Positions 1-64,000 of a DNA stretch of 64,000 nt are shown piece after piece. The stretch spans positions 62,001 to 126,000 of the forward strand of contig JAFCMP010000010.1 in assembly GCA_017506865.1 (NCBI GenBank). The letters are read 5' to 3'. Under the pieces are notes generated by a model. That model worked only from the letters and a program-made list of their open reading frames with translations, was not told where the DNA came from and did not search any database. The translations under genes and the position numbers were made by a program. How positions within the stretch are numbered: the stretch's first letter is position 1; each line of letters begins with the position of its first letter. The DNA is from Tribonema minus (lineage: Eukaryota > Sar > Xanthophyceae > Tribonematales > Tribonemataceae).

Positions 1-195
1 GAGGGTTCACTTCAACATGTTTCTTTGCCAGAGCCAGCCACAGCCACTGGTCAACCACAGCCACTGGTCACTTTGCTGCCACTGTGCATTACCCCCCACT
101 TTCCAGTAAACCGGCGCTGTCATGCGTCAACAACACATTTAACACCATCCGCCCCCCCCCCCGCCCCCGCCTCTCCCCCGTCTTTCACCGACCAG

Positions 196-2035
196 GCGAC
201 CGTCACGGTGCCGCTGCGGCCCGACTCCGCCGCCATCGACGGCACCGTCCTCTCCTTCAGCATGGTGGGCTCCGTCGTCAACGACGCCGCGGCTATGCAG
301 GCGGTGACGGCGACGTCGCGCCGCCTCGCCGCCGCCGCGACCGCCACCGCCGCCGGCGAGTGCGACATCAAGGACGTCGTCGCGGCGTGCAACGCGGCGT
401 TCGGCGTCGCCGTGTGCACGTGCGTGTACTCGAGCGACGGGCAGTGCGCGACGCCCGTGCACGTCGACGCCGCGCTGCACGCGCGCCGCCTGACCGTGAA
501 CCAGTGGCGCGGGCTCATCCCGGGGCGCGACGGCGCGGCGGCGGACGCCGCGGACGCCGCCGCCGCGCAGCGCGGGCGCCGCCTCGCTGTCCCTGAGTCC
601 AACGTCACGTCCCTCTTCGAGATGACGTTCCGCACGGACGGCAGCGGCACGGGGTCCGCCAAGGCGGCGGCGGCGTTCGACACGTTCGCCAAGTGCCGCG
701 AGCAGGTGCGTGCGGACGGTGTGCGTGGAAGCGGCGTTGGTGTTTGGGTGATGTGGCTGCTGCCACGCGCCGGCGGCGTGAGGGGGGAGTGTGTCTATTG
801 TGTGCGCGCGCCGGAGGCGGCAGCGCTGGAGCATGGTGCGATTCGCTGACCGCTGCCACCTATGGCAGCTGCGTGCGCTGCGCCGCTGTGTTATGTTGTG
901 ACTATGGTGCGTGCGCTTATCTGCAGGCTGTTGATCACAACGCCGCCCCTGCGCACGGTGGCACTTTTTAGCCAACATGGTCAAGCGCTATGTGTGTACC
1001 ACTGGCGACCCCACGAATGCGATGCGCGCTGAGTTGAGTGTTGCTGCTCAAAGCACCTCTAACCCTCGCCCCCCCCCATCCCCCCCACACCATGCGCAGG
1101 GTCTAAACACCATGAAGGCGGGCTGCTTCGACAACGTCCAGATGTCTGCCTTCAACTTCTCCCAGGTCATCGCGGCACGCAACGTCAACCCCGACACGTC
1201 CAGCGTGATCCTCGTGCAGGACGAGCAGGCGCTGCTCGCGCAGTCTGTGACCATGCCCGACATGACCTCCACGAGCCAGACGGGACTCAAGAACGTCTGG
1301 TTCATCTTCTTCCTCTTCGTGCTGCTGGTCGGCATCGCCGCGTGCCTGTGCGGCATGCAGCTCAAGCTCAGCCGCAGGAAGACGCTCGCCGCGGAGGCTG
1401 CTGAAGCCGCGAACGAGAACGACATCGGTGAGTGCTGTGAAACGGCTGAGCGTCGTTTGCGGCCCTGACCCCATTGAGGCACGTGGCAACATAACTGCTC
1501 GGCCAGCGCTGAGCTATGCATGTCTGCACTGATTGTGCAACCAACCATCAGCACTGCGGACTCCACATGGCACCGTTCTTCATGCGCAGACATTGCAACA
1601 CCATGTATACCATACATACACGAGTCCTGATGTGAGCGTCGGCGGCTGCAGGCGAACACTCCTTGAGGCAATGCACATCTGACACAAGCGCCTCTCGCCT
1701 CTCGCGCGACCTGAACAGTGCTCATCGACGGCAAGGGCGAGCGCGGCGCCGGCGGCGCCGACGGCGTGCGCCGCCGCCGCAAGAAGAAGGCCAAGCGCCC
1801 CGCGTCGCTCAAGAAGGACAACTCGGAGGACCTCGCGGACGTCTACTCTGGCGACTCGTACGAGGACGAGGACGCCGAGGGGGAGGAGGGGGATGACTTT
1901 GACGGCAGCCGCGCCGGCGTCGCCAACCCCCTGCGCGGCCGCCCCATCACCAAGGTGGACCTAGACTACGACGACGCCGCCGCCGCCGCCGGCGGCGCGG
2001 ACACGGACGACGGGGACTGGCGCCAGAAGTACTAG
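196..2035 (+). CDS. Type I membrane protein, unknown family (5' partial)
   Basis: Three exons are visible: 196-705, 1100-1427 and 1719-2035 (stop TAG). Donors are CAG|GTGCGT and G|GTGAGT, phases 0, 0 and 1, and they join into one frame of 384 residues. The first exon follows a long C-rich tract ending in CAG, so the gene begins left of the window. The visible part has an extracellular-type region with scattered cysteines and sequons (NVT, NFS), one membrane segment at about residues 236-258 (WFIFFLFVLLVGIAACLC), then a cytosolic tail with a basic patch (RRRRKKKAKR) and a long acidic, Gly/Ala-rich end finishing in DWRQKY. The orientation fits type I topology, but the N-terminal signal is not in view. 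I do not recognise the family. Reading frame and splice sites are well supported; function is unknown. Confidence 0.75.
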
Positions 2036-14600: not shown

Positions 14601-15554
14601 CTTGCCAGAGTTGGAGGGATCGCACTTGACGCGTGATGCATGCTGGGTTTTGGTTGCGGGATGTGAGTTGAGATGAGTCGTGCATGGTGGGCGATGATTA
14701 GACTGTGCGCTGCCTCATGTGCCGATCAAGAGCTATGCTTTGAACGCCATCAACAGCACTAAATGTTGGATATGGCAGTTCTCAGGGTAGTAGATGTGCC
14801 TGAGCCAGTCCAATTGAGGCACCTTTTGTGTGGAAATTAAAGTGGGAACATTTGAAGCTACTCCAAAAAGCGCGCAAGCAGGCTTCCAACAAAAATACCA
14901 CAAACAAGCAGGCCTCACGGCGGTGCATATACATATGGTCAGCGTTGAGCAATCTCTTGTTCCCGTCAAAGGCCTCAGCGATGGGAAGTGGCTGTTGGTG
15001 GCAGTACCATTGGCACAGCACAGAGAAGCTGCAATGAGAGCCTGTTGCAAGATCGTGCACATGGCCTCCGTGAACTTTGAGCTGGCGTCCATATATACTG
15101 GCACAGTTACCAAGGTCCTTATAGTACGCCTGAGAGCATCAGAGACGGCGCAGCCCTGTCCAGAAAAGCGCAGGCTTTTGGAAACAAAGGCATTGAACAT
15201 AAACAGGTCTTGCGACGCTGCACAAAAATGTGATCAGGGTTGAGCAATCTACTGTTGCCGTCACAGGCTTCAGCGATGTGGAAATGGAAGTTGGTGCTGG
15301 TACTTGATTAGTACTTAGTAACTACTTACGCATTGGCACAGCACAGAGAGACGTTGCAAAGAGGACCTATTGCAACATCGAACACATGGTCACTGTGCAC
15401 TTTACGCTGACGTGCATCAGTACCAAAATAGCTACCAATGTGCCTGATGCATCACAGGCGGCGCAGCCCAGCAGCACAACTGGCGTACCTTGGCCATGGC
15501 TTTGGCATCAACATCATGAAGGCCGCCTCCATAGAATAAGCATTCCGCCTCCAT
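8666..15554 (-). CDS. TWD40-2/TTRAY2-like subunit of the TSET (TPLATE) complex
   Basis: Supported exons on the minus strand are 14552-14318, 13758-13275, 12743-12358, 11673-11173, 10641-9446 and 9109-8666; all phases agree. A likely first exon is 15554-15489 (ATG start, ends AMAK before GTACGC, phase 0). That gives about 1,103 residues. The N-terminal WD40 propeller reads DVHPTKPWLATADEHDRVVVW, then IGCSDGAIRVWDW and RLVSRGDDAALLLWDM. Later landmarks are KLKLYALAAHPLRRHLLFVGSNVG, SGRYVAAVSR, EALAWVAGSLFATTPSSVW and RPVGALAVLGL, then a helical start (AGHTACALDLPGLS). Order and spacing follow Arabidopsis TWD40-2 (At5g24710) throughout. TSET is an ancient heterohexameric adaptor complex acting in endocytosis at the plasma membrane. 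The C-terminus stops soon after the helical part begins, so it is shorter than the plant protein. Poly-Gly and poly-Ala loops are inserted between blades. Confidence 0.82.
14938..15470 (-). repeat. Diverged tandem duplication next to a donor site
   Basis: Two copies about 295-320 bp apart share 'gttgagcaatct' (14944 and 15239), 'cattggcacagcacagag' (15008 and 15331) and 'gcgcagccc' near their ends. Both lie in the first intron of the TSET-subunit gene. The right-hand copy stops just short of the proposed donor at 15489. Confidence 0.7.
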
Positions 15555-18327: not shown

Positions 18328-18583
18328 CACGTCTGAGGGGAGAAGTCAGTTTCAAGTACTCTGTTGCCGCTGTTTCGATCACTCCACGCGTCTTCAAGGT
18401 TCCAGGACTTGAAGTAGTAGAGAGGAAACGTGTGTGTAGAGGGGTGGTGTCATTGCAGCAACACGGTGCATATGTTCAACTGTGCAACCAGCCGGTAGTA
18501 CTGCAATCTGTGCACTCGCAACTCCCTTGTGCTGGCGCATTGGCAGTTAACACCACAACTGCAGAACTGGACTGGAATCCCTG
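18328..18583. promoter_or_regulatory. Bidirectional intergenic region between ERCC1 and RanBD1 gene
   Basis: Only 256 bp separate the two divergent start codons, so both promoters and 5' UTRs must lie in or overlap this stretch. I see no clear TATA box. The assignment follows from geometry, not from a recognised motif. Confidence 0.55.
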
Positions 18584-21500: not shown

Positions 21501-22477
21501 GCCGCGAGCCAGTCGGACAAGGCGGTGCGCCTCACGGCGGTGCTCGCCAAGGGGTCGCCGCCGACGACGTTTCTGTTCAAGGTGAGCGCTGTCGGAGCGC
21601 GCCGCCACTGGGCATTACGTAGTGCATGCACTGCAGCGTGGCGGTTGCAAGCTATGCGACGTTCCTCTTCAAGGTCAGCACGGTCGGACCGCGCCGCCGC
21701 CGGCTCTTACGTATAAGCGAGTGCCCTGCGGCATGGCGCCGCGAGCTGGTTTGTTGGAGCGGGTTGCCTGGTGCCGCCAGCTACTGCAACGCTGAGATCT
21801 CAGGTGTAGGTGCCTGGTAAGTGCGCCTGATGCGGACCTACGACCCTTTTTGGCAGTTGCAGGTCGGCAGCTGCAGTCTCCATTCTAGCAGCTTCTGCCA
21901 GAGCCCTCGCATGGCGCAGTCTGCTGCATTGTGGTGCGGCGCAGTACGTGGCTGCTGGAGCGTTGCTGGCATGCCCTTGAATTTGATTTTCATGAAGACA
22001 TGTCTATAATTTGCTGTCCTTCAAGTCATTTACTTGCACAGCTAGATGGGCTAAACCACTCAGGCAATCGGATTGGACGCTGGAGCATCATCTGATTTCG
22101 TTGTCATGTACAGTAAGTAGTGCATGGCGTGACCCCTGCATGAATACTCTGCAAAGTGTCGCACAAGGCATTTTAAGACCATTTCATTGCCCAGATGAAT
22201 GCTCCGCCAGGTAGTTCGGGTGCTGCATTGCCAATCAACTAAAGCACAAGATATGGTTATCATACGCCCTGCTCTTTTCCTGTCATGATAGCGTGCGTGC
22301 AGCCTTCTGGCATGCTGCTGCTGCACCTTGCTTGGTGCGCGGAGCCCGTCATAATCAAAATGCTGATGTTGTCATGCGCGACAGGTCAAGACGAACGACG
22401 AGGCCGCAGCGCTGCTCAGGTGCATCCGCGAGCAGGTGGAGCAGCACGCGCAGCACGAGAGCGGCAAAGCGGACTGA
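18584..22477 (+). CDS. RanBD1-domain protein, NUP50/Nup2-like
   Basis: Six exons, 18584-18714, 18978-19419, 19851-19926, 20617-20864, 21366-21581 and 22385-22477, join in phase into 401 residues. The start MKRAADEVLP is followed by a basic stretch (GHKRARTED) resembling a nuclear localisation signal. Residues 45-191 are Ser/Ala/Gly-rich with scattered FG-type dipeptides (AFGGFSS, GGGGFGSP, GGIFGGGG). Residues about 230-395 form a Ran-binding domain: NGEEGERTLLQVRAKLFRLEA, EWVEVGIGPVRVLQAQ, RVVMRRESHPGGAGTKVLLN, then a C-terminal helix (NDEAAALLRCIREQVEQ). A poly-Gly insertion interrupts the domain between its first strands. FG-type spacer plus terminal RanBD1 is the plan of NUP50/Nup2, which binds RanGTP and importin-alpha at the pore basket; RanBP3-like function is an alternative. 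The start of exon 2 is a tandem acceptor (cagcag), so one residue is uncertain. Confidence 0.87.
21563..21735 (+). repeat. Tandem copy of a coding exon end, donor site and intron start
   Basis: About 85 bp around the donor of the fifth RanBD1 exon (boundary 21581, ttcaag|gtgagc) is repeated 92 bp downstream (21673, ttcaag|gtcagc). The match continues into the intron (gcgccgccac / gcgccgccgc, tacgta, gcatggcg). The second copy keeps a usable donor and the TFLFK codons. Confidence 0.85.
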
Positions 22478-24696: not shown

Positions 24697-26247
24697 CTAT
24701 CGCCCCAGCAGCACCCGCTTCAGGAACCGGAACACGCCGCGCAGCCGCCCCGTTTTTTGCGGCGGCTCGCGCTTGAACGGGTCGCCGGCGTCCTTGCGCG
24801 CCGCCGCCGGCGCCGCTGCCGCCGCCGCCTGCTCCGCCAGCGAGTACGCGCTCTGGTCGATGGCGGCCGGTATCTGCGTGCGGATGGGCGCGGCGCGGCC
24901 CGCGTCTGAGGCGAGCGGCGGCGGCGGCGGCGCGGCGCCGCCCTCGAGCCCCTCCGCGTGGAAGCCCGTCGCGAGGACGGTGATGTGGAGCTCGCCGGCG
25001 AGCGCGGGGTCGACGAGGGCGCCGAAGATGATGTTGGCGTCGGGGTCCACGTTCCTGTAGATGACCTGCGCGGCCTCGTTGATCTCCGCGAGCGTGAGGT
25101 CCTTGTCGCCGATGATGTTGAAGACGATGCCGCGCGCCTGCTTCACGGGGAAGTCGAGGAGCGGCGAGGAGATGGCGGCGTGCGCAGCGTCGCTCGCGCG
25201 CGTCTTGCCCTTGCCGCGGCCCACGCCCATGAGCGCCGTCCCCGCGTTACTCATGACGGAGCGCACGTCCGCAAAGTCGACGTTGACGAGGCCGGGCTTG
25301 ATGATGATCTCGGAGATGCCGACGACGCCCTGGCGCAGGATGTCGTCCGCGACGAGGAACGCCTCCTGCAGCGGCGTGTTCTCGGGGACGATCTGCAGCA
25401 GCTTGTCGTTGGAGACGACGATGAGCGTGTCGACGCGCGCCTTGAGCTCCGTGATGGCCTCCGTCGCCTGCTGCATGCGCTTGCGCCCCTCGAAGCCGAA
25501 GGGCTTGGTGACGACGCCAACTGTGAGGGACCCCTGCTCCCGCGCTATCTCTGCCATCAGGGGCGCCGCTCCCGACCCCGTGCCGCCCCCCATGCCTGCC
25601 GTTACGAACACCATGTCCGCCCCTTGCACCACAAGGGACAGGTCGGCTCGGCTCTCCTCCGCCGCCTTGCGACCAACTGCCGGATTGCCGCCTGCTCCCA
25701 GCCCCCGCGTAACGTCCTGCCCTATGGCCAGCTTCCCGGGCGCCAGGTTGCGGCTGAGAGCTTGCGCATCCGTGTTGACCGACCAGAACTCCACACCCGC
25801 AATGCCAGATTGCACCATGCGGTTGACGGCGTTCCCTCCTCCTCCCCCTACTCCGATGACCTTGATGATGCAGGGAGTCTCTGAGCCCTCAGCTACCAAG
25901 GAGGCAGTATGGGGCTGAAATGTGGTGGGCACCTCCTCTGGAGGTGTCACGACTGGCAGATCCTCCACGTTGGAGTAGGGGCTGGACTTGGCTGCAGCCA
26001 TGGCGCTGCCAACCGTGGGCCCGCCAGCTGTGACTTTGCTCTCCAAGCCCTTCACGTACGACATGGGCAGGTACTTGGAATCGAAACCTCTGTCATCCCC
26101 GGCGCCACTGCTGCTGCCTCCTTCAGACCTGGATGCACAGCGACTGCGCTGTGCCCTGCTGTTGCTGCTGGGCAGTGCCTGGAAGGCTTGTGCCAGGTGT
26201 CCGAGGTGCACCGCCAGCACGGCAACTGCCACGCATGGTAACCTCAT
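24697..26247 (-). CDS. ftsZ: Plastid division GTPase FtsZ with bipartite targeting sequence
   Basis: One uninterrupted frame of 516 residues. I chose the ATG at 26247 because it starts a signal peptide ([18 protein letters not shown]) ending AQA|FQALP, the Phe motif of complex red-lineage plastids; a Ser/Gly-rich transit-like stretch follows to about residue 120. The core has the FtsZ GTP-binding elements [13 protein letters not shown], the tubulin signature [17 protein letters not shown], and the T7-loop region [11 protein letters not shown]. This is the cyanobacterial/plastid type of FtsZ, not the mitochondrial one. FtsZ polymerises into the ring that constricts the plastid at division. The C-terminus ends in a basic segment (FLKRVLLGR) that could serve as a partner- or membrane-binding tail. 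It is the only clearly intronless gene in the window. It faces the plastid fatty-acid gene across a divergent spacer. Confidence 0.95.
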
Positions 26248-43159: not shown

Positions 43160-45271
43160 TCAGCTGTCTACCGTGATGTGGCGGAGGCCTGTACGTCCCA
43201 CCACACCCCAGTGAAAGTCATGCAGCCATGTGACGCGGTGAGCGGCGTCTGAGGTGCCTCGTTGACGCGCGCACTTCCTGCTGATATGACCAGCCGCAGA
43301 TGCCCATTGTCTTGACCGTTGAGGCCCTTTGCAGCGCACATCCTTGTCCGTTCTCGTGTCCATCGGCCATCCAGACGCTCGCTCGATGGCACTTGAGTCA
43401 GTGATCATCGTCAGGCCTGCGGCACGTCCGTTCCGCCCTCCTGCTCCCTCTCCGTTCTGCACAAGTGTCGTCAGATAAGCGCAGACGCAGCGGTGATGGA
43501 GAGGCACAGCGCACTCGAAGCAATCGGTGCGGACACAAAAACCGCACGTGCTGTCACATGCACTGTATTACCTCGTCACAAGAAACTACAGCCAGCTGGC
43601 GCTGGTGCACGCAGGACGCAAGACTGTTAGCTCTGCGCTCCGCACAGCGTCAGCAGAGGCAAGCGGCCACGTGCATCAGCCCTCTTGATGCTACGAAAAA
43701 CGACATCATCAGTGGGTACAGCTCGCCGCATGCAAGCGACCTCCCATTACACTGCCACAAGGACGAGCACACCGCGCATGTCATCCATCGTGGCGGTGAT
43801 TGCGAGGTGCGAGTGCGTTGCCAAGGCAGGGCGGGGGGGGGGGGTTCAGGTGCGCTCACCTTCGGAGCGCTGCTTCTCCCGCTTTGACGCGCCGCTTCTG
43901 CTGGAGTCCCCTCCCAGATTGGACAGCAGCCGCCGCGTCAGCGAGTGCCACAAGTCTCCCGCCAGCTGCGGCACATCCGGATCCTGCCGCCGTGCAGAAA
44001 ATGAGTGTATGTACGTTGCAAGTGAACATCGGTGGCTGAGGCGTCGTGGCGATGTGCTGGCTCGCTTGGCGTGGCACGCAAGGCGCCCAGAAGGCGCAAG
44101 CACGGTGTGCTCGCCAGTGCCGGCAGTGCTTGCGGAAGGGCGACACGGTGGCTATACGATTTTTGACGGGGGCACGCCGGGTGACGCTGCAAGCATGCAG
44201 AACCATGTGGACCTTGCCAGCCCGCACAGATGGGGTCAGAGGTGATGGTGTTCTGTTCGGTGATGGCGATTGGCGAGAGTGAGTGGATGCGTAGTGCCCT
44301 GGTCATGCAGACATATCGCTGTCACATCTTTGGAAGAGAGTGTGCATGCAAGGCACAGCCTGCGCGGCCCTGGACAGGGCAACTAGGATTATCGTGACAT
44401 GTATCATGACATGCAAAGGGTACACTGTGCTTGCCTGCATCACGGCCTTGGTGAAAAAGACCAGCGGAATGGCAAGGAGGATGATAAGGATGCCGCCGGT
44501 GATCTGCGCCCACGAGGCAGCACAACACAGCAACAGGAGCGTTGTTGACTGTTGCGCATGTGAACAACTGTGCCTTCAAGTGCAAATGCACACCACTTCA
44601 TCAGTGTGTCATTAATGCTAGTCGCATACGTCGCTGCAAACTGAGAAAGTGGCTGCTGTCACTGCAAACGCTTCTATTACTGCAACTGCCTCATTACCGC
44701 CCCTAGTATTCATGCAACAGCCACATTCATGCACGTCTGGAGTGCATGGGCAATGCCATGCGTTGCCAATCCCTACGGGTCAGCACATGCCATTGCACAA
44801 CAATTTGACACAGAATCACAGTGTTGACGCTGGCTTGCAGTGCTGGCAGGCATGGCTTGCGGTTCTAGCCGTACTCGTGCATTGAGGCTATGCAGGCATA
44901 TGCTTGTGGGTTCACCAGCTTGTGTGTGTTCACCAGCTCATGTGTGCCTTGCCAGTGCTAGCCGTACTCGTGGATTGAGGCATGTGCAGGCATAGCTTGT
45001 AGGTTCACCAGCTTATGTGTTCACCAGCGTACATGTGTGCCTTGCAAGCGCATGCTCCAGTTGTATTTTACATGGGGTTGCACTCTGAGAATGGCAGCTC
45101 CACTTGCAAAGCTGAGGTCACAAAACTAGCGCCAATTTGCCAATTTGAGAAGTAGCAGCATGCTGCATGACACATTTGATACTTGACCGATTTGACAAGT
45201 ATGCGACATTGCGGCCACAGTTTACTCACCCACAGGAAGACGGTAAAGTCGTGCTCCTTGCTGGCATGCAT
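43160..45271 (-). CDS. Small single-pass membrane protein, unknown
   Basis: Four minus-strand exons, 45271-45230, 44503-44435, 43983-43860 and 43248-43160, join in phases 0, 0 and 1 into 107 residues. The protein starts MHASKEHDFTVFLW, has one hydrophobic segment at about residues 15-33 (ITGGILIILLAIPLVFF), then a polar, helix-prone region (DPDVPQLAGDLWHSLTRRLL) and a basic patch (SKREKQR), and ends GLRHITVDS. The second intron uses a GC donor (CAG|GCAAGC). Every junction keeps frame, and the hydrophobic exon sits between a good acceptor and donor, so a gene is likely. Further upstream exons cannot be excluded because the first exon is only 14 codons. I do not recognise the family. Confidence 0.5.
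44868..45055 (-). repeat. Tandem duplication, about 95-bp unit
   Basis: 'ctagccgtactcgtg', 'gattgaggc', 'ggttcaccagctt' and 'atgtgtgccttgc' occur in the same order in two consecutive blocks. It lies in the first intron of the small membrane-protein gene. Confidence 0.75.
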
Positions 45272-45770: not shown

Positions 45771-48700
45771 ATGACGGGGATGCTGCCACCTGATGCACAG
45801 CGGCTGGCTGCAGCTGCGATCTGCGTCTCGGTGTTTGCTCTCGTTTTGTCGCGGCTCATTTCAGCGCTGAAGGCAAGATCTATCAGGAACAAGTGGGATG
45901 CTGAGTGCACAAGGGCTAAGCAAGAGCGAGACAACAGGACGCACAAGTGTCTGGCTGGCAACGATGGGGGCATGCCGGCAAGCGGCGATGAGAAGATAGC
46001 AGTGATGACTGCCATGCAGTTGAGGGAAGCTATGCACGCAGGGGAGCTGACGTGCGAGGCAGTCACCATGTGCTTCATCCGGCGCAGCCGGAGACTGGGT
46101 CTGCTGCAGGTGCGCATGCATGTCGGCATCCCCATTGGGTTAACCTTGACGTGTTCTTGTTGCAAAATATGCATGCGACTCTGTAAGGCAAGCCACGCAT
46201 GCCCTGTGCTGATTGGCACTCGAAAAGGGGACAGTCGGCATGACATGATGGGATCCGCTTGCCACTGTAACTTGTGCAGTGCGCTGCCTTCAAAATTGTC
46301 TGCTCTGTACGCTTGAGAACCTAACAACAGCCCATCTCACCACATTTTGCGAACGGATCCCAGGACTGTTTTTTGCCTGCATCGATTCGCAGCTATCCAG
46401 CCTGGCACATAACCTTCCGCCCGCCGTCTCATGCTTGCAATTTGTTGCCGTTGCAGCTCAATGCTGTCACGGAAGAGCTTTATGATGAGGCGCTGGAGGC
46501 AGCACAGGCATTGGACAGGAGCGGGCGCCTGCTCACCACAGACCTCGATGACCCAGACTTGCCGCTGCTGGGACTCCCAGTCAGCATCAAGGTGCGCTGC
46601 GTGGCAGTGCTGGCGTACAAGCTTGCAGAATCGTAGCGTGTCATTGATATAAATACGAAGGAATAGAGGGGGGTTATTTTTGCGATGGTTTTTGATCGGT
46701 GTTCAGTGGCGCAATGGTGTTTGATAGTGAGGATCTTGCTGAAAAGCTATCTACTGCCACGTCAGGTGCATCACCTGTATGGCACATCAGCGTGGTGTCG
46801 GGACTCGTCTAACTGAGGAAGCCAGGAATGCTGCAGTTTTTGGGTAGGTTCCGCAGCAACCACAGTGTAGCACACCCAGTTGCAAGAGCATCAGCGTGTT
46901 CTCATCTGAACTCCCCTTTTGATGAGCTCAACAACAGGCTCGGCGCTGAAGTTAGGGTTAGGTTAGGGTTAGGTTATCCGAACCCAACTCTAAGCAGCAG
47001 TCTGCGCCTCCTGACTGTACATCGCATAGTGCCGTGCCCGCTTCCGGCCCCAGTGCAGCAGGCCCCCTCACTGCACATGGCGCAACGCAGCGCGCGTGCC
47101 ATTCTCATTCTCAGCATGTGCCATGTGTTATTTGATGCTTTTTATGTGATGAGCCATGTACCAAAAGTCTCTATGCTGCTGCGCTCCGGCAGCAGCGCGC
47201 TTCATGCTGAGGCACCTGGTTGCATGCACCGCTCTGTCACGCATGACACTTGTGCCCCCGCTGCTGCTGCTGCTGCTGCTGCCGCCGCAGGATTCCATCG
47301 AGCAACGGGGCACCATGTCCACATGCGGCGTTGCCTGCCGATTACGATTGATCTACAAGGTATGTGTGTGATTGCGTTTTGTTGGGTACTGTTGTGTCTG
47401 TCGCGGCGTATCCATCTATCCCCCAGTCTATCCGGGGGTCAAGCAACGTGTGCACATCGCACTGCGCGGGCAACTACACACGCGCGTGCTGCATTGGGCG
47501 TCAGCTGCATCTGAAGCACTTTGAGTCGCTGCAACTCAGGTGCTGCGCAGCAAGCCTGCATTGCAGCAGTGCTCTGTCTGTGCTGTCACCTTCCTTCCGC
47601 ACACCCAGCGCACCGCAACATGCCGCCGCTTGCGGCGTTCCATTGGCACGCAAAAGTCATCGTCACATGTGCCCTGCGTAACACCGACCGCGCGCCGATC
47701 CGCTTCCCTCGCGTGCGACGACAGGAGGACGGCCTGCTGGTGTCGCTCATGCGGACGGCCGGCGCGATACCCTACGTGCGCTCCAACGTGCCGCAGCTGC
47801 TCATGATGAGCGAGACGGACAACAGGTCAGCAGTGCTCAGCGCCTGCCTGCGCCGCGTGACGCGTCCGTGGTGTCGGCGGTGGCGTCTATGCGCAGAGGG
47901 GCGTAGAGGGTTGCTCATCGCCTGCCTGCGTTGCGTAAAACGCCGGTGATGTAGGCGGTGGCGCCCATGTGCAGATGAGCGTGGAGGGTTGAGCGCTGCT
48001 GCTGGTGATGGGTCAGTGCTCAGGCGCTCAGCACGATGAGCGGCGCTGGTGATGTGTCAGCGCGCAGGCGCTGACAATATGCATGATGAGGTTGTGGCTC
48101 GGCTGTCGGGCGCGGCACCCTGCAGCTGTAGATGCTTGCTGTCAGCAGTGAATCTGCGCTATACGCTTCAGTGATGCCATGCCAAGCGGCTCTGTCTGTG
48201 CACCTGACCCTAACCCAAGGCAGCATGCAAAGGCTGCCGTGTTTAATCGATGGCGGTGCGCTCAGCGTGTGTGTTGATGCGCAGTGCATCTGATGCGTTT
48301 TTGCATGCTCCGCTGTGCGGCACCGCACCGCGTAGAGCGGGGGCGCACCAAGCGGGTGCGCGCGCAAAGCATGCCGCACTGTCCATCTCTGCTAGAAATG
48401 TGCAGTTGCGAAGCCAACGGCTGCTGACTCATCATCTCAAGCCACTAAAGCAGTGCACTGTCATCATCGCCCAGTGCCACTCATTGCATCACCGCGTGCT
48501 CAACGGTCGCTGCCGACGCAGGATCTTCGGGCGTACCCTGAACCCTTGGAGTCCCCTGCGAGGGGCAGGGGGGAGCAGCGGGGGCGAGGGGGCCCTCATC
48601 GCCAGCAGAGCGAGCCCCCTGGGGCTCTGCTCGGACATTGGCGGCAGCATCCGCATACCCGCAAACTTCTGCGGCACGGTGGGATTCAAGCCGACGCCGG

Positions 48701-51700
48701 AGGTACCTTGTTGTTATTAGGGTTAGGGTTAGGGTTAGGACAGCGCACCTGATTTTTCTGTTGAAATGTCTACATGAGGTCTTGCTGAGGGCGCAAAAGA
48801 GCCCAGATGGTGGCGAAAAAGCCCAGATGGTTGATGTCAAGCGTGCTCCAGACTTTGCGTTCATCTTGTGACAGCTTGAATGTGTCTTGATGCGCATTGA
48901 CCATCACTCGTAGACGACATGGCCAAATGGCTTTGTACGTCGGCAACAAAGATTGAAGGTCGGCCATGTGGTGATTGTAGGCGCGTGCAGGTGTACTCGT
49001 CGTCGCAGCTGCTGCCGCTTCATGGTCTCCAGCGACTTCAAGCTCGAGCCCCGAAGCCATGTGGCTCCTGCTGCAGAGTGTGCTCACCTGTTCTTTAGCA
49101 CCCACAACGATGTCGTCACACCTTTTATGACTGAATTTTATCCTCTTCATTCACGTCTTAACCCGCTGTCTCTCCCTTGTACAACTGCTTCTCGTCCTGT
49201 TCATGTGCAGCGGATGACCATGAAGGGGCTGGCAATAGCGCGCGCGGGCGGCAAAGTCGGGCAACGCATCATCCGGTGAGCATAGTCCCGACCCCGAGCA
49301 CGCAACGGGCTTGATGCAGCACAGCCGCCAACACGTAGAGCTGCATGTCCAGCGCTCGTGTAGTCTGCAGTAGGCGCCAGATACAAGTATCAATACTTGT
49401 TGCGATTGTCGCGGCTGTCTGCTGCAGACACAGCGCCTGCTCACATGGAACGTCGCACTATCATGCGTGCGTCCTCAAGCCAACACATGTGTTTTTGAAA
49501 TATGTTTGTAAACATTGTGCTCTGCATCACATGTGTCGCCGCCGCCGCGGCCGCCACTGCCCCCGGCACGACGGTGCCGACTCACATTGTGCTTTACCGG
49601 ACTCAAAAATGATTGTGGTAGTGCCATCTCTGTGGCTGAGGTGCACGCTACCGTTGCCCCCGTTGCGACCAGTGCGTACGGCGGCTCAGCAACCGCTGGT
49701 GCGGCGGCTGCGTCGCAATGCACCAGCCGATTGAGCTCTGCTAAGCACAGTGGTCCATCAGTCTCTACGCAAATCTCACTGACTCCGCCGCTGGTGACTC
49801 TCCTGACGTACAACGAATGTCTGTACGTGCATGCGCGCGTGCAGGGCGACGGCCGGCCCCATGGCCAACTGCGTGGCCGACTGCGAGCTGGCGATGCGGT
49901 CCCTGTGCGGCACGCACGTGTCGCAGCAGGTGAGGGCCCTGACTGCAAGAATATATAAAGTTGAAGTTTGCCTGAGTCACTTGCAGTTCACCTGTCGTCG
50001 CCCGTGGTCCATCAGCGTCACTGGCATAGTGTCAATGTCACCGTGCAGCTCATCGTGTTGTGCTGAGTCATTCAAAGCTCCTTGTCGTCAATCATGGTTC
50101 ATCAGCGTCAGTGGCAGACTGTCAAAGTCGCCGTGCAGTTGTCCCGCACCGGCGTCACGCTGACGCACACAACCTGTTCAGCAAGGCAGGGCTGCCATCG
50201 CACCAGCAGCGCCGGCTTCGCGCACAAACCGCAGCCTCCGGCTGCAACCGCACTGTTTCCATGCGCTGCCAGCTCGCTTCAGCTGTCGGTCTTCACGCGT
50301 TGAGAGCACTGTGCTGAGCGCTGTGCTCTGTTCATCACATCTCCTCAGGACTCGTACGTGCCGCCGACGCCGTGGAGCACTGACGTCGCGCGGCGCGGGC
50401 TCGGCAGGCCTCTGCGCATCGGGGTGCTGCATTCGGACCAGTGGTTCAGGCCGTGTACGGTGAGCCGACGCGTGGGCCGCTAGTAGTGCAGTTCTGTATG
50501 AGCAACTCGAGCGTGCAGGGCATCGAGACTGTGCACCATGCTCGTATTGCGGGGGCGCATGCGTGCGCACGCAAAGTGCTGGTGTGTGGCCAGCATGTGT
50601 ATCGATGTGCTTTCATTGGCCAGGATGTGTATGGATGTGCAGAGCTGCATGGACACACGGCCGTCTTCACCACTGCTACTCGTGGTTTCTCAAACGTTCA
50701 CGTGACGCATTCATCATGGACACTCCAGCTGCGCGCTGGCAGTGCTCACCTCACCATTTGCCGCAGCATTGACTTCGGGTGAACATTTATTGTGATGCAA
50801 ACAGGCCATTGAAAGGGGCATCCGCGAGGCGGCGGCTACGTTGCAGGACGCAGGGCACGAAGTGGTACAGTTCAGTGTCCCCGACGAAGCCAGCGGGTGG
50901 GACGTGTGTCGCCAGTACTACGGACAGCTGGTGAGCATTGGCTGTCTTTTGAACTGGCAGAGTACTCTTTCGGATTTCCCCATGCGCACTCACGCTCTGA
51001 GAGCAGGTTCTGGCTTTCAGCGTGTGCTGCACCACATGACGGCAAGCATACCTTGCCTACCCTCAACAGCGGAAACCCCTTTTCTTCTTGAAGACATCAT
51101 GTGCGCTGAGCATCAGCACAGCTTGACAGCAAAATCAGCTGACGCTCAGCACCCTGTGCCTGCTGGCTTTTGTCACGCAGTACATAGCTGTTGCTTGTCC
51201 CAATCGGCTGCACCGTTCATATCTTGTCGCAAGGCCGCGCCACCATCGCTGTCGACTCGCCAGCTCCGACTGATGTGGAAGCGCTCGTGGTTGGGTGGTG
51301 TGCACTCCGTGCACGCCAGCTTCACTGTCCTACCATCGGTCATTGCAACAATCCACCTGCTCCTTTCTCCATTGCCGCATTGGTTGGTGAATGACTATGT
51401 TTGATAGTACACGCTGCGCACCCACGTATGGGTCGCCATGCTCATTCTGCTTCACACATTAGAGCGAGCAGCACCGCATTGCATATGACGACTCGCCTTT
51501 GCTGACTGCACACTCATACGCTTTCACTGTACCAGGGTTCCGAGGGCAACATGGCTGGGTTCGTGGCGGCACTGCAAGGGGAGCGGCTACTCGGGTAAGA
51601 GCACCGTGCTGCCATCGCTGATCTTGCGAAACTTGACTGTTGCTGTACAGCACCTAGAGCCTTGACATGAAGCTGGCTGTGGATCGCCGATTTGTTGCTG

Positions 51701-55643: not shown

Positions 55644-58600
55644 CTATGGTGGCGGCATCGCGCCTCCGGCGCCGCCCGCCAACCGCGCGCGTTCAGTGAC
55701 CTGCGCGGCATCAAAAACGCGACATCGTCATCAGAACGGCAAGAAGTAGCGGCTGTCAAGTCGAAGGCACAAGACAGTCGTTGCGCAGTTCGTCCGCAAA
55801 CGCTCTAAGAAGTGAGCGATGGCGACTGGAAGGCTTGGTTCAGGTCACAAACCAGCGTCAAGAGCACCCAGCATTGCATTGCTTGCGCTATCATTGCAGC
55901 AGCGGCGACCACGGTTATTGGTGGAAGGCACTTGCGGCTGACCATCCCTTGTCACTTAGAGCTCAACGATCTTTTGATTCGTTTCTCATTCCAAAAAATG
56001 TTCACAGGACAAATATGCGCGTAGCTGTGCGGGCAGCAGCCTGGCACAACCGCAATCAAAATAGCGAATCGTTGCCAAAACTCCTCAATGTCCATTCAGG
56101 TCACACTCGTCGCCATGCAGCAAGCAACCGGCAGTGGCCATGAAACACACGTGCGGGCGACCGTCGTCGCTGCACGCGTGCCCGCACAAAGCGCGCGCGC
56201 ACGCGGCTTCGAGCGGCACTCACGTCTTGACAGATGAAGGCGCTGCCTCGCCGCTCAAACACCCAGCCCTCGCGCCCCTCGGTGCCCGGCGTGTCAGCGA
56301 GGCGCAGGAAGACGGTCGGCGCGGGGCTGCTGACAATGTCTTCCGCCTTCTGCACGCGCTCGCTAACCTGTGGTGACGCAGCGGTGGCGGATGCGCAGCC
56401 GTTACTTTGCCGTGTTCATGTGCCGGCAGTCCCGTGGGAAGATTGAATGCAAGCGCGAAACTGGGACGCGGAAGGTGATGTTCAAGGACGCGATGGACCC
56501 GCATCGTGCATTGTGGCCTGGGCATCTCTGCCACATTTGTCTGACACTATGTGCCAGCAAGCAGCCTGTGATGGCACACACGTCACTGTGGAGCACTGCC
56601 ATCATAGCCTCCCACGCGCACGCTGCCCTGACTCCTGCTTTTGTGCATAAGGATATGTCGCAGCAGCGCAGCGCCATGTTATTGAGCGGGGGTCTCTTTA
56701 ACTCATGTGCCTGACGTGGCTGCACACAGCGCGTGCCTGAGCGAGAGCTGTTGATTGTTGCTCACGCCGACATTGCACAGCGAGGCTGCACGTGCCTCGA
56801 GGTGCGCCAAACAATTGCATCAGCATGGTGCTTTCGCGCGCTCGCACTTGCGTACCTCCCCATCGCACTGAACTATGTACACGTACTCGCAGCAGAATTG
56901 CATTTGCAGGCGGCAGCGCGCGGTACCTGGAAAACACGCCTGACGGGCATGATGGTGTGGGGAAGGGCGGGCGGGGCATGCAGGTCCGCATTGCTCCTGA
57001 CCACCACGCCATTTTCGTGGACAACCTGGTGATCGTGGGGGGAGGGGAGGGGGGGGGGGGGGGGTAAGTGGCGTTCGGCAGGCGCAGAGGCGGAGGCGTG
57101 CGCAGTGCTCAACGTGTCAGCAGGGACGTTGCACCCCCCCCCAGGCATGGATTGTGGCATGAGAATGAAGTGCGAGAACAGTGCGTATCTCACGACCGAG
57201 GGCAAGCACGTGTGTGGGAAATCGGTGGCGCACGTAGCGCCTGTGCCGTGTACTGCTGGATCTGGACGTAGTACTGCTGATTCTGGACGTAGTGGTGGTA
57301 GAACCAGACGCTTTCTGACGCGAAGTACTCACGCGCGTAAGGCTATGTGGGTTCCTGCAGCCGTCGCGCTTTGCGCAGTCGTCTCCGGCTATGAACTTCA
57401 GCAGGACATCTCCACATTCCACACAAGGGCAGCATAGTAGGTCCCCGCTTCAAAAAGTGCACACTTCGTGGTCATTTGGGATGATGCAGTACCAGAAGAG
57501 GTGCCACAAATGCGCATCACGGATGGGACTCACCACTTCTATATCTACGACTGACCCCATAGGAGTGTCAATATTGCTCCATTTCCCATACGTTGTTGTC
57601 ATCCAGAGCAATCGCGGTGAGGACAACTGCACGGCTGCTTTGAAAGTGCCTGGGAAATTAGTAATGTTCTGAGTCCGCAGTCGAGGCCGACAAAGCCTGC
57701 ATGGTTCACCATCATACTGCAAGGGTGGTGCCAAAAACACACAGCGATCCATCTCCAGGACGCAGCGCAAGCACACACTGCGCGCACTCACAACGTAGGT
57801 GAAGGGGCCCTGCTCCACCCTATCTAGCACGAGCTCCAGCAGCGACAGGCCCGCCTTGGTGGCTCGCACCCACGCCTGATCCTGAGCGCGCTGCGCCGCG
57901 TTGGGGCAACACCACAAGGTAGGCAGGTTTAGCCGCTTGAGAGTGCATATCGTACAGATATGCAGGCACGAAAGCGCGCCGCGGAGCAGCCGCGTGGGGG
58001 CGAGACCGCAATGTAGGTATGGTGAGCCGTTTGAGAGTGCGAATTGTATGGGCGTGGTGGCTCGCAAGCGTCTTCGACATTCGTCTCACGGCGTATGCGC
58101 ACGCAAGTGCAAGTCCCTGGAGAGCAGCAGGAAGTGAAGTACACGCTCGTGCGACCAAGCTCAAGGGTGACTCCCCGTGCATACGGACGATGGCGCTGCT
58201 CAGAGCTCGTGCAAATACACTTCGATGGTGCAGGCGCCGCCGCATTGGTGCAAAGCAAGCTTCGTGCAGGCTCACAGTCACGAATTCACGGCAAGGCGCC
58301 CAAACCCCTTACTCTGACCCTATACGCATCACAAGCTACATGGTGACGTACCTGAACAAAAACGACATCACCGCGTTCATGCAAACCAAGCTTCGCGCAG
58401 GCTCACAGTCACGACTTCACGGCAAGACGCCCGGAGCCCTCATTTTCACCCTATACGCACCACATGCTGCATAGTGACGTACCTGGACAAAAGCGACATC
58501 GCCGCGTTCATGCAAAGCAAACTTCGCACAGCTCACGGCCACGACTTCGCGGCAAGACGCCCGGAGCCTCACTCTCGCCCTATACGCAACACAAGCTGCA

Positions 58601-61600
58601 TGGTGAGCTGCACGTCACCATGTGAAAACGACGTACCTGAACAAAAACGACGTCGCCGAGCCCCTCATAGCGCACGCACACGCGCCGGGTGGCGGCAAAG
58701 GCCGTACCCTGCCGCAGCGCCTCGCCCGGTTTTGCGGTGACGTGGGGGCTGTCGCGCACCAGTATGCCGCTCTCTACTGTCACCCTGGACGGCCGCAGGG
58801 GGAAGGCGCAATGGAGCGGAAGGGGGTAGCGGGGTAAGCACACCGTGGTCAGCGCCAAGCAGTGCACATACTGGGGGGATTGAGGGCAGGGGGGATACAT
58901 CAGATAAATTCAAGCCAAAGATCACCAATGCGCAGGGCACGCCAGGTTCGTTCCTTCGTGATCCTGCTGTACAACTAGCTCTCATCCCGCCAAAACACAC
59001 GGAGCACGGCCAAGGACGGCGTAGACGGTTCTGAAACACAGCGGCGGAGCGTCTGCCCTGCATGATGCGCCTCACACGCCGCGCCACGTCATCTGAACGT
59101 CTAATCCTGCTCTGGATCCGCAAGTGCTGGGCCGTAACTACGCAAATTTTTGTTGCGACTTGAGGTGCGCTGTGGCATTACTCAGTTAGTCCTTGTTGCA
59201 CCAGGTCGCAGTGCTCAGCGCTGGCCGTTTTGGGGCGATGTTGGGCGTGCTTTCGATGCAATTTACCCTACGGGGCTGCGAGCCCCCGCCCCGCAAGAGA
59301 TCAATGCATTAGCTCTGACGCACTGCTGGGCGTCTCAGGCTGCGCAGATGACGACCTTGTCGGTCAGCGCAATGGCGGAGAGTGCAAAGAGCACATCCAT
59401 TGAGCCCAAAAGGGCAGCGCTGCCACGAGCACCACTGCTGAGTCGCTGCACGCGCGCGCGTGCGTACCTGAAAACAAAATGCCCTTGCTCCTCTTCTATG
59501 GTGGTGCCCTCCGGGCAGCCCACTTCTTCAAATGTGAGTTCGGCGGTGGGGTCGTTCCTGTCGTACGCCGCCGGCCTGCCGGGAACGCCTGCACAAGAGC
59601 AGCAGGCAGCAGCGCTCAGGTTGTGCCGTCGCTGCGGGCCGTACGCGCAGCCCCGCTCCTCGAAAATGCATGACATCAGGATAGTGTTGAGGGGCGTGAG
59701 AGATGTGATGACAGTCACTGCCCACTGCTGCCGCCACTTGGGGGGGGAGTGGCGTTCGCCGTTGGAGCAGCCCTGCTCGTATGCTCCTGTGCAAAAGCAG
59801 CAGAGCTCAGTGTATGAGATCATGCACGAAGGCTGGAGACGGCAGCGTGCCTCCTCACGCACGAGTGCAGTGCTGGGGCGCTTGCTGTCGATTGCCGTTC
59901 GTGGCGCTATGAACGCTGTGGTGAGAAAGGAGGCACGCATGGCTGTCGTTGGGCTGCCAGACGCACATCCAGCGCAGCATTTATGGTACATAGCAAAGAC
60001 GGCTCAGCGATGCCGCTGCATGGTTGCGTGCACATTCTTAGGGTTAGGGTTAGGGGGGAGGACTCGACCGCACGGCTATGCACAGAAAGTTATGCATGGC
60101 TGCTTTGTCACACTAAGTTTCTTGAACAACATGGACACTCGCTGCTACAGAAATGAGCGCAAGGGGATGGGGATGGTGCAGAGTGGCTGAGCATGGCTCA
60201 ATTGCCACCTGGATCTGGTCTTGCATACGGTTCAGTGCCATTAAAGAGGTCAACCATTGTAATAATGCACAATGGTGAGGAGCCCAGGGAATAGAATGCA
60301 ACATGAGCTGCTGCATGCACATGCTTCAAAGCACCATGTACGACGAGAGACTCTATTGAGTGTGACAACCCGATGTCATGACAGACGTTACACGATACTC
60401 TCTTGAAACACCACAAGAATCAGACTCCAAGATATCATTCAAACACATGTAGCTTCCACGTTGCTTTGAGGGCAGGAGCCATTTGCGCTTGGCAGTACAT
60501 CAGGGTCATATTTGAGTGACTCTGACGCACCTGGCAGTGCCGGCGGTGGCGGTGGAGGCGGCGGCGGTGGCGGCACTTGATCTGGGTCAGCTGGTTCAAA
60601 TAAAAAACCTCGTCTGCGCTCACAGCGGCGACAGCGACAGCAGCGCATGCAAGTTAGATTGAACGATTGCTGCTGCAGGCATAACCGCAATCAGTTTTGC
60701 AAACAAGGGTCAGATGGTCCTGCTTCTCGATGCGCACTTCACTCCCACTCCTGTCTCTGCGTCGCGTGCTGTTCTGCACTTCACCCACCGCTGTGATGAA
60801 CGGGACCCGCGCACGGAGTCTGCGTATCACGGGCGCGCAAACTGCTGCTGCGCCTGCCATGCATGCGTGCGCTGGCTGTCGCACAACAAGCCATGGGAAC
60901 AGGTCGTAAAGTGCGCCGCTTGCAAATTCCACATTCGGCGCAGCGGCACGCACGTCGACGCACTCCCAGCTTCCAAAATGCATGCCAGAACTGCAGCGGC
61001 GCCTGCGCAACACGCAGTCCGAGCGCTGAGCGTTGAGGGCGGCAGCACCGCTCAACCATGTCTTGCGACCTCGTGGCGGAGTCGGCGATGCTGACGCAGC
61101 GCGCGCGCCCTCACGTCGCGCGCGCTTCGGAATGCCGCAACAGTGGACTTCGCAGGGGCCGCGCAAGTCCGCGCTCGCGGCGGCGCCCGCTGCGCCCCGG
61201 TTGCGCAGCGCTCAGTCGCATAGAGCAGCAGCAGCACGTCTCAGCCGGCGCGCGGACGCACGCACGCACGGCGCTGCACCGCTGACAGGCAACTTATCGA
61301 AAAGAATCAAATGAGCGTAGAGCTCTAGTCGCAAGGTGTGGTGAGCCGTCAAATTGAGTGCCTTCCACCAATAACCGTGGTCGCCGCTGCTGCGGCATTT
61401 GGCCACGAGTCAGATTAATTATTTGTTGAGTTTGTTGCTCTTCTTTCAGGCGCCGATATTCTCGTCTCTGACGTCGATCAATTTGTGAAAACATTCCTCT
61501 AAGCCGACAATGATCAACACCGCAGCGCGCGCGGCCTCACCTGATGTCGATTTTGACGAATGTGACAGTGGAGCCGACAGGCGTGTACATCTGGCTCGCC

Positions 61601-64000
61601 TCCAGCACCGTGCCGTGCGCGTACACGGTGGGCTGCAGCGCCGCGTCGGCGGACGCCTTGGAGTACAGGCGAGCGCCGCTGCGCCGCGCGACGCGGTAGA
61701 AGAACTGCGGCAGCGCGCGCGCACGCCAGGGGAAGGGGGGGGGGGCATATGACACGCGTATGAGGGCAAGAAGAGGAGGGCCAGACACGGTGCATCAGAT
61801 ATATGCTTCATGTTGAGATCGCAGCACGCTGACATGTGCATCGCGGTCCAAGCGCCGCGCTGCAGGGTGGGTGCTGTCAGCGTGGTAGCGGCGTATGGCT
61901 ACGGCGGCGGTGGCATTGCACGCCGCCAAGTGTTGCAGCGCGGTACACACAAGGGGAGCAGCCACACTGCAAGTTGAAGTTCACCTGGCCGACTCGCCGC
62001 TGCGGCGGCGCCACCGGTTTGAGCCACCGTTCATCGCCCAACGCTTCAAACAGCCACCCGCTTCGCCCGCAGCTGTCCCTATCGGCAGAAATCTGCGCGC
62101 ACAGCAGTGCAGGCGACAGTGCTGTCAGCTGAAGTCCGCGCGATTGCGGGACGGCGCACGTACCCACGCGCTGACCCGCATGGGCACCTAATGGGGGCTA
62201 GTGCTGGATCTGCATGGCATTTGCGGTGGCGCTGGCGAGTACGGCATGCTCAAGAAATACGACGCGCCGACGTCAAACGGCCTCGACTGTGTGCCGCGCG
62301 GCACCGGTACCGGCGACCCGGCGAAGGAGAGCAGCAGCGGCAGCGCCGGCGGCAGCGCTGGCGCGCCGCGCGTGTGCGTGCGGACGTGCTCTGAAGTGCA
62401 GCCGCCTGCCGGCGGCAGCCATCGCCGACGGCACATAGACGAGTTGTTGTATGTAGCATTTGGTGCAACTTCGTAGTCCGCGTCCGGTTGAGCACCCGTT
62501 CGCACATGCGCCGCGGGGTTTGGCCGCACTTTGCTTGAAGCTGCCGAATGCTAGGTGAGTGGTGGCACAAGGCGGCGTGCAACTGATCATGGCTGGGCGC
62601 TGCACCAAACGCGGTACTGAGCAATGCAGCATCCTGGACAGCCGCTGGTGCACGGCCAATTGTGAGAACGCGCTGGCAGGCGCAGCGCCTGTAAGCTGCG
62701 TCGCTGCAGTGCAATGCTCGGGAAGCACAAGACAGTACAACCCTGCGTGCAGCCTGACGTGTTCTTGTAAGCACAGCGGCGACACGCGGCGCGGCGGCGT
62801 GCGACACGATGCACAGCAAAATTCAAGAATGAGCTTCGCTCGGTGACTCGCCTTGATATACACAATGCCGTCGCTGACGTCCTCCAGCCGCTCCTCGGAC
62901 TTTAGCAGCTCGCCGAGCGACATCTTGTTGCTGCAGCCGACGAGAGCGACATACACGAACCGGACGTCATTCACGTGCAGAGCACTGCTGTGTGTGGCTA
63001 GGCCACAGCACGGAGCGCGCAGAAAACAGCGCCGTCACAAGGGCACACCCCCGCAACTCGTGACCATCATCTGTTGTTCAGTGGCAAACACGTTTGCTCG
63101 CAAACAAGCTCTCATCATCAGTTTATCCGCGAGGTGCAGCCGCAACATGAGGGGCTTTGCACGTGTGCTGCGCAAACACGCAGGATACAGCGGCATGGCG
63201 CATCACCACCGGGTGCTCACTTTGTTTTCGGCGCGTCCCAAGACGGCTCCTTGCACAGGACGGCCCCTCCCCTGCGCGTGACGCGGTAGTAGAACTCGCC
63301 GACTTCGCGCTTGAAGCACGCATTCTCCACCCAGAAGCACTCCACGACGAGCTGGCTCCCACCCTGTCGCATGCGTGCGAGCGCGGCGGACACAGCGGCG
63401 GCACACGCATCAGCTGATGCTTGCTGCACTGGCACGGATACGCGGCGCGGTTGGCGCAGAAGCAGCGGCCTCGCAGTGGCGGGCTACGCACGACGGGATG
63501 GAGCTGCCCCACTTCAAGTTGTTCACTTCTTCAAGTGCAACAGAGGGCGTCAAGTGTGCTAGGGCTCCGCTCAGTGTTGAACAGTGCGCGCACGGCTCAA
63601 ACGTTGAACCTAGCGCGGGCGCTGCGCGCTTGTTGTCCAAAAATGTCGCTCACAGCAAGCGCCGCGGTGTGAATGCGCCGGGGCGGGCGAGCACACTGCT
63701 CAGCATCAGTGCTCAGTACCAGTGAGCATCAGCTGACCCACGCAGAGGAGGTCCATAACCTGGTCGCAACACTGCAGCGCAAGGGCACCCAAGAGTGCGA
63801 TGGCGCGAACAGCTGCCGAATTTCAAGCAGAGATGCTGCTAACAGAGGCCTTTGTCAGCGCTACAGCGAGCACCGCCAACACGCCGGCAGTCATGCAGCC
63901 GCTGCGATGCTCACCATGGGCAGCGTGATCTTGTCATGGCACACGATGTCGTTGGTCAGTGGGACTATGGCTGTACCGAGCGGCGGCCCGTCGATTGCTG
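55644..64000 (-). CDS. Protein with repeated SH3b-like units (5' partial at window edge)
   Basis: Minus-strand exons join in phase: 64000-63915 (partial), 63363-63221, 62930-62852, 62092-61985, 61704-61541, 60613-60531, 59588-59468, 58784-58637, 57881-57792, 56367-56224, and tentatively 55700-55644 (stop TAG). That gives about 406 visible residues. Units of about 70-90 residues recur: an opening YRV..GG or FRV..SG strand (FYYRVTRRGGAVL, FFYRVARRSGARLY, VFRVTVESGILVRDSP), a variable middle, and a closing [V/T]-aromatic-[V/I]-K/R then GWLFE, RGFLFEP or GWVFERR. This resembles bacterial-type SH3 (SH3b) folds in tandem. A poly-Pro stretch separates units 2 and 3. One intron begins with a GC donor (AAG|GCGAGT, boundary 62852). 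Function is unknown; SH3b repeats often bind peptides or cell-wall material. The last exon (18 residues) is the least certain part. Confidence 0.7.
55896..55988 (+). repeat. Dispersed intronic repeat, copy 3
   Basis: It begins 'gcagcagcggcgaccacggt', continues through 'attggtggaaggcacttgcg' and 'agagctcaacgatctttt', and ends 'gattcgtttctcatt'. It lies in the proposed last intron of the SH3b gene, antisense to it. Confidence 0.85.
58220..58660 (-). repeat. Tandem repeat, about 140-bp unit, carrying copies of an exon end and donor
   Basis: The true donor of an SH3b exon (boundary 58637, GTTCAG|GTACGT) is echoed at 58493 (GTCCAG|GTACGT) and 58352 (GTTCAG|GTACGT). Each copy carries about 20 bases of the exon's end and the same intron start. 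Shared blocks include 'ttcacggcaag', 'cgccc', 'ccctatacgca' and 'cacaagct'. Confidence 0.9.
60038..60056 (+). repeat. Telomere-like TTAGGG run
   Basis: Three TTAGGG units followed by extra G lie in an SH3b-gene intron. Confidence 0.85.
61299..61412 (-). repeat. Dispersed intronic repeat, copy 4
   Basis: Read on the minus strand it begins 'tgactcgtggccaaatgccg', continues 'cagcagcggcgaccacggtt' and 'attggtggaaggcac', and ends 'catttgattctttt'. It is the longest copy, and its first 14 bases match copy 1, which sets the left boundary. It lies in an SH3b-gene intron, sense to the gene. Confidence 0.85.

Follow-up and report, generated by a model that had tools for sequence, protein, structure and literature searches.

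Short tandem duplications are common in the introns of the alga Tribonema minus, and a large share of them cross an exon-intron border, so that an exon edge and its splice site are repeated inside the neighboring intron. The starting point was a stretch of 64,000 nucleotides (positions 62,001 to 126,000 of contig JAFCMP010000010.1, assembly GCA_017506865.1), referred to here as the window. All eight arrays named in the initial annotation of the window are present. The six described there as junction-spanning (RanBD1, fabD, the GH26 exon 11 donor, the GH26 exon 11 and exon 12 acceptors, and SH3b) do cross a splice junction, and the other two adjoin a donor; the unit lengths, given there as 90–140 bp with one near 300 bp, agree with the measured 78–135 bp plus one of 295 bp. 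The explanation we prefer, with a probability of about two in three, is that short tandem duplications arise widely, that those crossing a border are tolerated and stay visible for longer, and that splicing keeps to the exon-proximal site.

Every result derives from a single assembly of one genome. The sequence examined amounts to 314 kb and comprises the window and 25 further 10-kb stretches from arbitrary places in the 158-Mb assembly (labels between L003 and L028 denote sequences outside the window). Splice borders were taken from our own ab initio hidden Markov model (HMM) gene finder, trained on the sampled sequence; the FabD border was also obtained from protein alignment. When transition costs were set loosely, unsupervised training degenerated to about 2,000 small introns, and a different training was used. 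The model has a donor consensus of approximately AG/GT[GA]AG and an acceptor consensus of CAG/, and predicts 394 introns with a median length of 312 bp in the full 314 kb, with the caveat that such predictions sometimes merge genes or create spurious small exons. Five of seven window proteins matched a Pfam family above its cut-off (Rad10/ERCC1, acyl transferase (FabD), GH26, amidase and, barely, Ran_BP1), as did eight of ten chosen proteins (protein kinase, RICTOR, FAD/NAD reductase, UPF0029 fused with PIG-H, EF-hand, MMACHC, kinesin and M3 peptidase); among the latter ten, the Pfam search gave no family for the L024 protein and the SH3b-like piece.

Repeats were detected by self-alignment, with Tandem Repeats Finder (TRF) as an independent detector. 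A local shuffle of a 264-kb sample containing the window, run once, yielded no pair above the threshold applied to the real sequence. A looser, more sensitive alignment scheme (86 real pairs at 40 bits versus 4.0 per 314 kb in shuffles; 25 of 36 arrays crossing a border versus 14.6 expected) mixed in low-complexity regions and merged arrays, and was not used for conclusions. Arrays were classed by the sequence just outside both ends on the native HMM path, and the expected number of border-crossing arrays was obtained from random windows of unit length. This flank-based test agreed with an earlier border test, which chose the best-scoring of several collapsed versions and may favor exon calls. 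Both tests omit three of the 65 tandem clusters (unit >215 bp) and 19 spaced clusters, leaving 62 arrays.

Self-alignment identified 84 repeat clusters, 65 of them tandem, in the 314 kb. They occupy 39.3 kb (12.5% of the DNA) and cover 15.6% of predicted intron, 10.5% of exon and 4.8% of intergenic sequence. The units of the tandem clusters measure 61–209 bp, plus three of 295, 329 and 331 bp. Repeats with 20–60 bp units outnumber longer-unit ones in TRF, and the idea of a characteristic unit length was dropped for this reason. Classed arrays are found in 20 of the 25 other stretches and border-crossing arrays in 13 of the 25, with examples in kinase and kinesin genes (L013), an MMACHC-like gene (L018), a RICTOR-like gene (L026) and a flavin reductase gene (L004); L023 and L024 each contain one unassigned gene with five border-crossing arrays. 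Tandem duplication is thus genome-wide in this alga. The youngest border-crossing array seen (L026:6216-7190) consists of about 14 copies of a 70-bp unit, with 99.7% identity over its best stretch, and extends 7 nt into a predicted exon. It is the one direct border-crossing case in favor of the ongoing process suggested by the initial annotation; most arrays are old.

The decay of the copies distinguishes them from exons. Pooled over 34 of the 37 border-crossing arrays (of the other three, two lacked a pair of intact sites and one a predicted exon), the divergence between the exon edge and its copy is 93/1143, 98/1142 and 192/1137 at codon positions 1, 2 and 3 (8.1, 8.6 and 16.9%). A non-coding copy compared with a constrained exon is expected to give a ratio of about 1:1:2, and two coding exons a far larger share at position 3; the observed pattern therefore indicates a non-coding copy beside a constrained exon. 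Between copies, the divergence is 14.3, 15.0 and 21.0%, a rise of about 1.75 times at positions 1 and 2 that is close to the doubling required by two free lineages. By this measure, the intronic copies in the 34 pooled arrays appear to be under no coding constraint. Identity between the real edge and the copy averages 0.87 in the exon part and 0.72 in the intron part, and 30 of 35 arrays show the closer match in the exon part. The exon-derived part is also more alike between copies in 19 of 26 arrays, with pooled identities of 0.76 (exon-derived) and 0.68 (intron-derived), or 0.765 and 0.728 without the two dominating arrays (L013:2853 and L024:320); the copy-versus-copy identity gives only moderate backing to repeated stamping from the exon side. 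Use of a copied site would disrupt the reading frame or introduce a stop codon in 80 of 87 cases (frame information was available for 87 of 88 sites, some of which are neighbors within one copy). The proposal that such copies seed new exons is not borne out, given these counts and their evolution as non-coding DNA.

Border-crossing arrays are in clear excess overall. Forty-nine of the 62 arrays are flanked by intron and exon or by intron on both sides, and 36 of the 49 cross a junction versus 14.2 expected (flank-based test); the TRF border test gave 17 of 39 versus 10.1. Junction-spanning repeats are thus commoner than under random placement, a comparison that the initial annotation had proposed. 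The excess in the window alone is not significant (4 of 9 arrays versus 2.5 expected, P = 0.21), in a count that omits the 295-bp array (unit >215 bp) and the GH26 exon 12 array, which is in one listing and missing from the classed set, apparently because it falls just below the complexity filter.

The excess depends on age. At an alignment identity of at least 82%, 7 of 14 arrays cross a border versus 3.7 expected, and below 82% the count is 30 of 35 versus 12.6 (earlier border test). When arrays are ranked by intron-side identity, after dropping five of 37 border arrays with too few intron columns, the counts are 5 of 13 versus 3.8 at 0.80 or above and 18 of 30 versus 8.7 at 0.70 or above. 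TRF repeats with a match of at least 80 give 4 of 14 versus 3.5, and the youngest (match of at least 90%) 0 of 17 versus 2.0; sixteen of these 17 have units below 60 bp, which makes the set a poor match to the 60–210 bp arrays. Among younger arrays of 60–220 bp, 5 of 11 cross a border versus 3.2 expected, that is, near chance or slightly above, which suggests a low cost. All of these young sets are small. Within such numbers, border arrays seem to accumulate with age and not to be born in excess. The excess lies mostly in older arrays, as expected if the exon-held copy is kept recognizable by selection on the protein. Of the initial proposal that this process lengthens introns and multiplies splice sites, the genome-wide presence in introns of tandem duplications that multiply splice sites holds; preferential duplication across junctions is not supported by the young arrays.

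The preferred explanation may be set out as follows. The genome would keep generating short head-to-tail duplications, mostly of 60–210 bp by alignment and also shorter by TRF, which would fall in introns, over exon-intron borders and in exons. Selection would clear most exonic duplications unless they are in frame. Intronic and border duplications would survive because the spliceosome uses the copy on the real exon and removes the others with the intron; splicing seems to ignore the intronic site copies. Each event would make the intron one unit longer and deposit in it a duplicate exon edge with its splice site, and repeated events would stamp more copies from the exon-held original. Stamping from the conserved exon side at different times would leave copies that share the conserved exon part. 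The intronic copies would decay without coding constraint and the exon-held copy would be maintained by selection on the protein, so that border arrays would stay recognizable for longer and dominate among old arrays. In the six two-copy arrays with sharp ends (in L004, L005, L007, L012 and L018, and at 47834 in the window), the copies abut with an overlap of 0–5 bp; the ends of the remaining arrays are eroded. Such joints fit fill-in and end joining of staggered breaks, which is the probable chemistry, with slippage or unequal exchange for further copies. In this account the sequence itself shows the arrays, their positions on the gene model, the mode of decay and the trend with age, whereas the chemistry, the order of stamping and the disuse of the intronic sites are inferred.

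Several observations weigh against this explanation. The border excess persists at an intron-side identity of 0.75 or above (11 of 23 versus 6.7 expected, P = 0.04), and recounting the SH3b donor array as a border array raises the count to 12 of 23 (P = 0.016) at 0.75 and 6 of 13 (P = 0.145) at 0.80. The exon positions derive from the HMM, and the arrays are not independent, since 10 of the 36 border arrays come from the two stretches L023 and L024. Among arrays of at least three copies, 27 of 30 cross a border versus 8.9 expected, and masking the true exon still leaves 24 of 28 such border arrays recognizable from adjacent pairs, and all 28 from pairs of any kind; survivorship covers this excess only if the exon side keeps stamping new copies. 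Finally, the GT or AG survives in 69 of 74 copies versus 84% expected from codon positions 1 and 2 (P = 0.016; P = 0.035 when counted as 69 of 75), and matched exon dinucleotides are kept less often (121 of 164).

Part of this evidence would be explained if duplication were targeted to exon-intron borders, or multiplied best there, for example through breaks linked to transcription, splicing or the step in G+C content (0.677 in exons versus 0.549 in introns under the HMM model), and were favored at birth. The overall excess, the arrays of at least three copies, most of them detectable with the exon masked, and the count at 0.75 all point in this direction. The young arrays show no clear excess in any of their small sets (0 of 17, 4 of 14 and 5 of 13 in the tests above), and we regard border targeting as unlikely. 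A related view, which we hold to be slightly more doubtful, combines border-coupled duplication with active retention of the splice copies; introns would then be ladders of working sites, read by a spliceosome with an unusually strict exon-proximal rule.

Selection might also act on the site copies alone, retaining them as spares or decoys that adjust splicing or direct transcripts to nonsense-mediated decay. The dinucleotide retention is in keeping with this, as is the finding that 28 of 35 arrays contain an intronic copy scoring no more than 0.5 bit below the real site (two of the 37 border arrays were skipped in the scoring). In acceptor copies, the CAG positions are kept at 95–100%, above most flanking positions (71–91% at 4–10 nt upstream in the intron and 76–89% at the first five exon positions); some flanking positions are, however, kept equally well (94% at the base just upstream of CAG and 97% at the sixth exon base). 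The statistics are marginal, the border-picking model itself favors strong sites, and the coding portion of the copies erodes in the manner of neutral DNA. The retention is therefore weak evidence, either of something extra at the sites or of a bias introduced by the border model, and decoy selection is improbable on balance.

That the copies serve as genuine alternative or repeated exons, encoding protein repeats, is very improbable, and is already disfavored for the set as a whole. The HMM does place small exons in many copies, 5 of the 62 arrays are wholly exonic (earlier border test), and use of 7 of the 87 copied sites would prolong the protein with the frame kept and no stop met; against this stand the 1:1:2 divergence and the frame breaks or stops that inclusion up to the other 80 sites would bring. 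An assembly or gene-model artefact, conceivable given one assembly and ab initio models that at times fuse genes or invent small exons, is hardly credible, since the copies are mostly 65–90% identical and hence not duplicated reads, most of the searched proteins have Pfam families, and 30 of 35 arrays conserve the exon part better, as they should if the exons are real.

The assembly-error alternative raised in the initial annotation is likewise opposed within the window, where copies of the named arrays are about 66–86% identical to each other. In the TSET-like (WD40) gene, intron 1 contains two copies of a 295-bp unit (14906–15469, minus strand) that end 19 nt inside the donor at 15488/15489. 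The first exon of this gene (9 nt) is a weak HMM call, its WD40-type Pfam matches are below cut-offs, and the TSET label was carried over from the initial annotation. The RanBD1-like gene has two copies of a 92-bp unit at the exon 5 donor 21581/21582 (21565–21738, plus strand), located at 21565–21643 and 21657–21738, each with the exon edge and GT; 17 nt of exon precede the donor, and the protein matches Ran_BP1 with 23.6 bits against a cut-off of 23.2. The FabD exon 3 donor array (29044–29467, plus strand; unit 130/131 bp) contains the real donor at 29132/29133 and copies at 29262 and 29393. The FabD protein joined at the first donor aligns without gaps there with solved malonyl transacylases, so that the exon-proximal copy fits as the functional one.

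Three arrays lie in the GH26 gene, all on the minus strand. The exon 12 acceptor (34275/34276) has an intronic copy in an array at 34240–34483 (unit 133 bp, with 31–36 nt of exon). The exon 11 donor (35100/35101) is accompanied by three intronic copies (34649–35107, unit 111–118 bp, 7 nt of exon); three of the four copies, the real one included, read CAG/GTGCG and the fourth CGG/GTGCG. The exon 11 acceptor (35226/35227) has one intronic copy (35178–35405, unit 135 bp, 32–49 nt of exon), which outscores the real site (11.0 versus 7.4). A two-copy array lies inside a predicted intron at 44853–45051 (minus strand, unit 92 bp), where the gene model is weak. The FAAH/amidase gene, which has an Amidase Pfam match, contains two copies of a 78-bp unit in intron 4 (47834–47991, plus strand), starting 8 nt inside the donor and not crossing the junction, and a further intronic array with a 91-bp unit 42 nt from a donor (49972–50138, plus strand). 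The SH3b-like gene, whose label was also carried over and whose protein has no Pfam match, contains an acceptor array absent from the initial annotation (57887–58064, minus strand), in which a 94-bp unit, present twice, reaches the acceptor 57890/57891. Its donor array (58238–58660, minus strand, unit 131 bp) includes the real donor at 58636/58637 and, at 58482 and 58351, two intronic copies of the donor with its exon edge; these copies were read by eye, as the automatic step ended at 58606 and scored the array as intron-only.

Boundary repeats and intron gain by tandem duplication are on record in human, Drosophila, potato and others (PMC2812944, PMC2891723, PMC4974935, PMC3443670). The arrays have the defining features of boundary duplication, head-to-tail copies with a unit holding an exon edge and splice site. 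Human segmental duplications similarly contain internal tandem repeats at exon-intron boundaries that alter introns and splicing, where 27 modified introns were recorded among primate-specific paralogs, with RNA support and a mean unit of 30 bp (PMC2812944); here, in contrast, 36 border arrays occur in 314 kb of one genome, with units mostly of 60–210 bp, and they are mostly old and known from sequence. Rogers-type intron gain shares the short genic tandem duplication with a copied splice motif, but duplication under the AGGT model makes a new intron of unit length, whereas existing introns grow here. Arrays with exon on both flanks, as such gain requires, are rare and, as a class, fewer than expected (6 of 62 versus 11.0, protein repeats included); L013:1038-1464, L024:8317-9042 and L026:2299-2815 may be single cases.

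In mouse embryonic stem cells, breaks with protruding ends induced by Cas9 nickases gave rise to tandem duplications through end joining (PMC5730883). These duplications resemble the present arrays in their head-to-tail, abutting copies with little or no microhomology, which are here deduced solely from old sequence. Dual-specific AGGT splice sites in tandem repeats, as in polyubiquitin UBC (PMC10809524), likewise place repeated splice motifs in an array within one gene; those repeats are coding and their sites are used stochastically, whereas the intronic copies described here decay as non-coding DNA. Introners (PMC9860276) also change intron content in bulk, but they are families shared among loci. 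The GH26 exon 11 donor and FabD arrays, each searched alone, had no match elsewhere in the 158 Mb; for these two arrays, similar sequence forming introns at many loci was not found, and a shared element was rejected. A full-text literature search returned no title reporting exon-edge arrays at this scale or density in one genome, which is the whole basis for regarding the scale as unreported.

If about one-eighth of the bases in the genome lie in such clusters, tandem duplication would be a large source of intron sequence. The tolerance of splicing is the striking part, with a copy of near-equal or better score in 28 of 35 arrays; the spliceosome would have to pick the right one of two identical sites from the outset. 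Border arrays are natural experiments in this respect, with equal or stronger site copies about a hundred bases away that are apparently ignored, and they would provide many dated cases in each genome for studying how the spliceosome chooses among duplicate sites. The 1:1:2 codon test tells dead exon copies from live exons without RNA.

Other sequences were noted in passing. The dispersed repeats near two sampled arrays are families separate from those arrays: a family of about 150 bp inside a predicted intron (L023:2575-2724; of the 40 copies scored among 1151 first-look candidates, the top ones are 84–90% identical) and one of about 77 bp (L024:2200-2276; up to 95% identical among the 40 scored of 160 first-look candidates). 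A dispersed element of about 95 bp, found in both orientations and mostly in predicted introns, lies in the window at 55896–55985, 61299–61393, 31926–32017 and 35401–35470, and also in L003, L009, L012 and L013 (a partial list) with 81–94% identity. A long predicted gene at L007:1249-7366 contains reverse-transcriptase-like sequence by eye and is probably a retroelement. Short internal telomere-like CCCTAA/TTAGGG stretches were detected by TRF at 37435–37480 and 46951–46976 of the window. The single-exon gene at 24697–26400 of the window, which we take to belong to the FtsZ family, has a signal-peptide-like leader ahead of its conserved domain; this leader, the telomere-like stretches and the RuBisCO fragments described next would fit an alga whose secondary plastid is red-derived, perhaps a stramenopile. 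Fragments of the RuBisCO large subunit, presumably of the red type, are present at L027:1486-1677 and L028:1225-1647 on contigs of about 2 Mb, and are likely plastid DNA moved to the nucleus.

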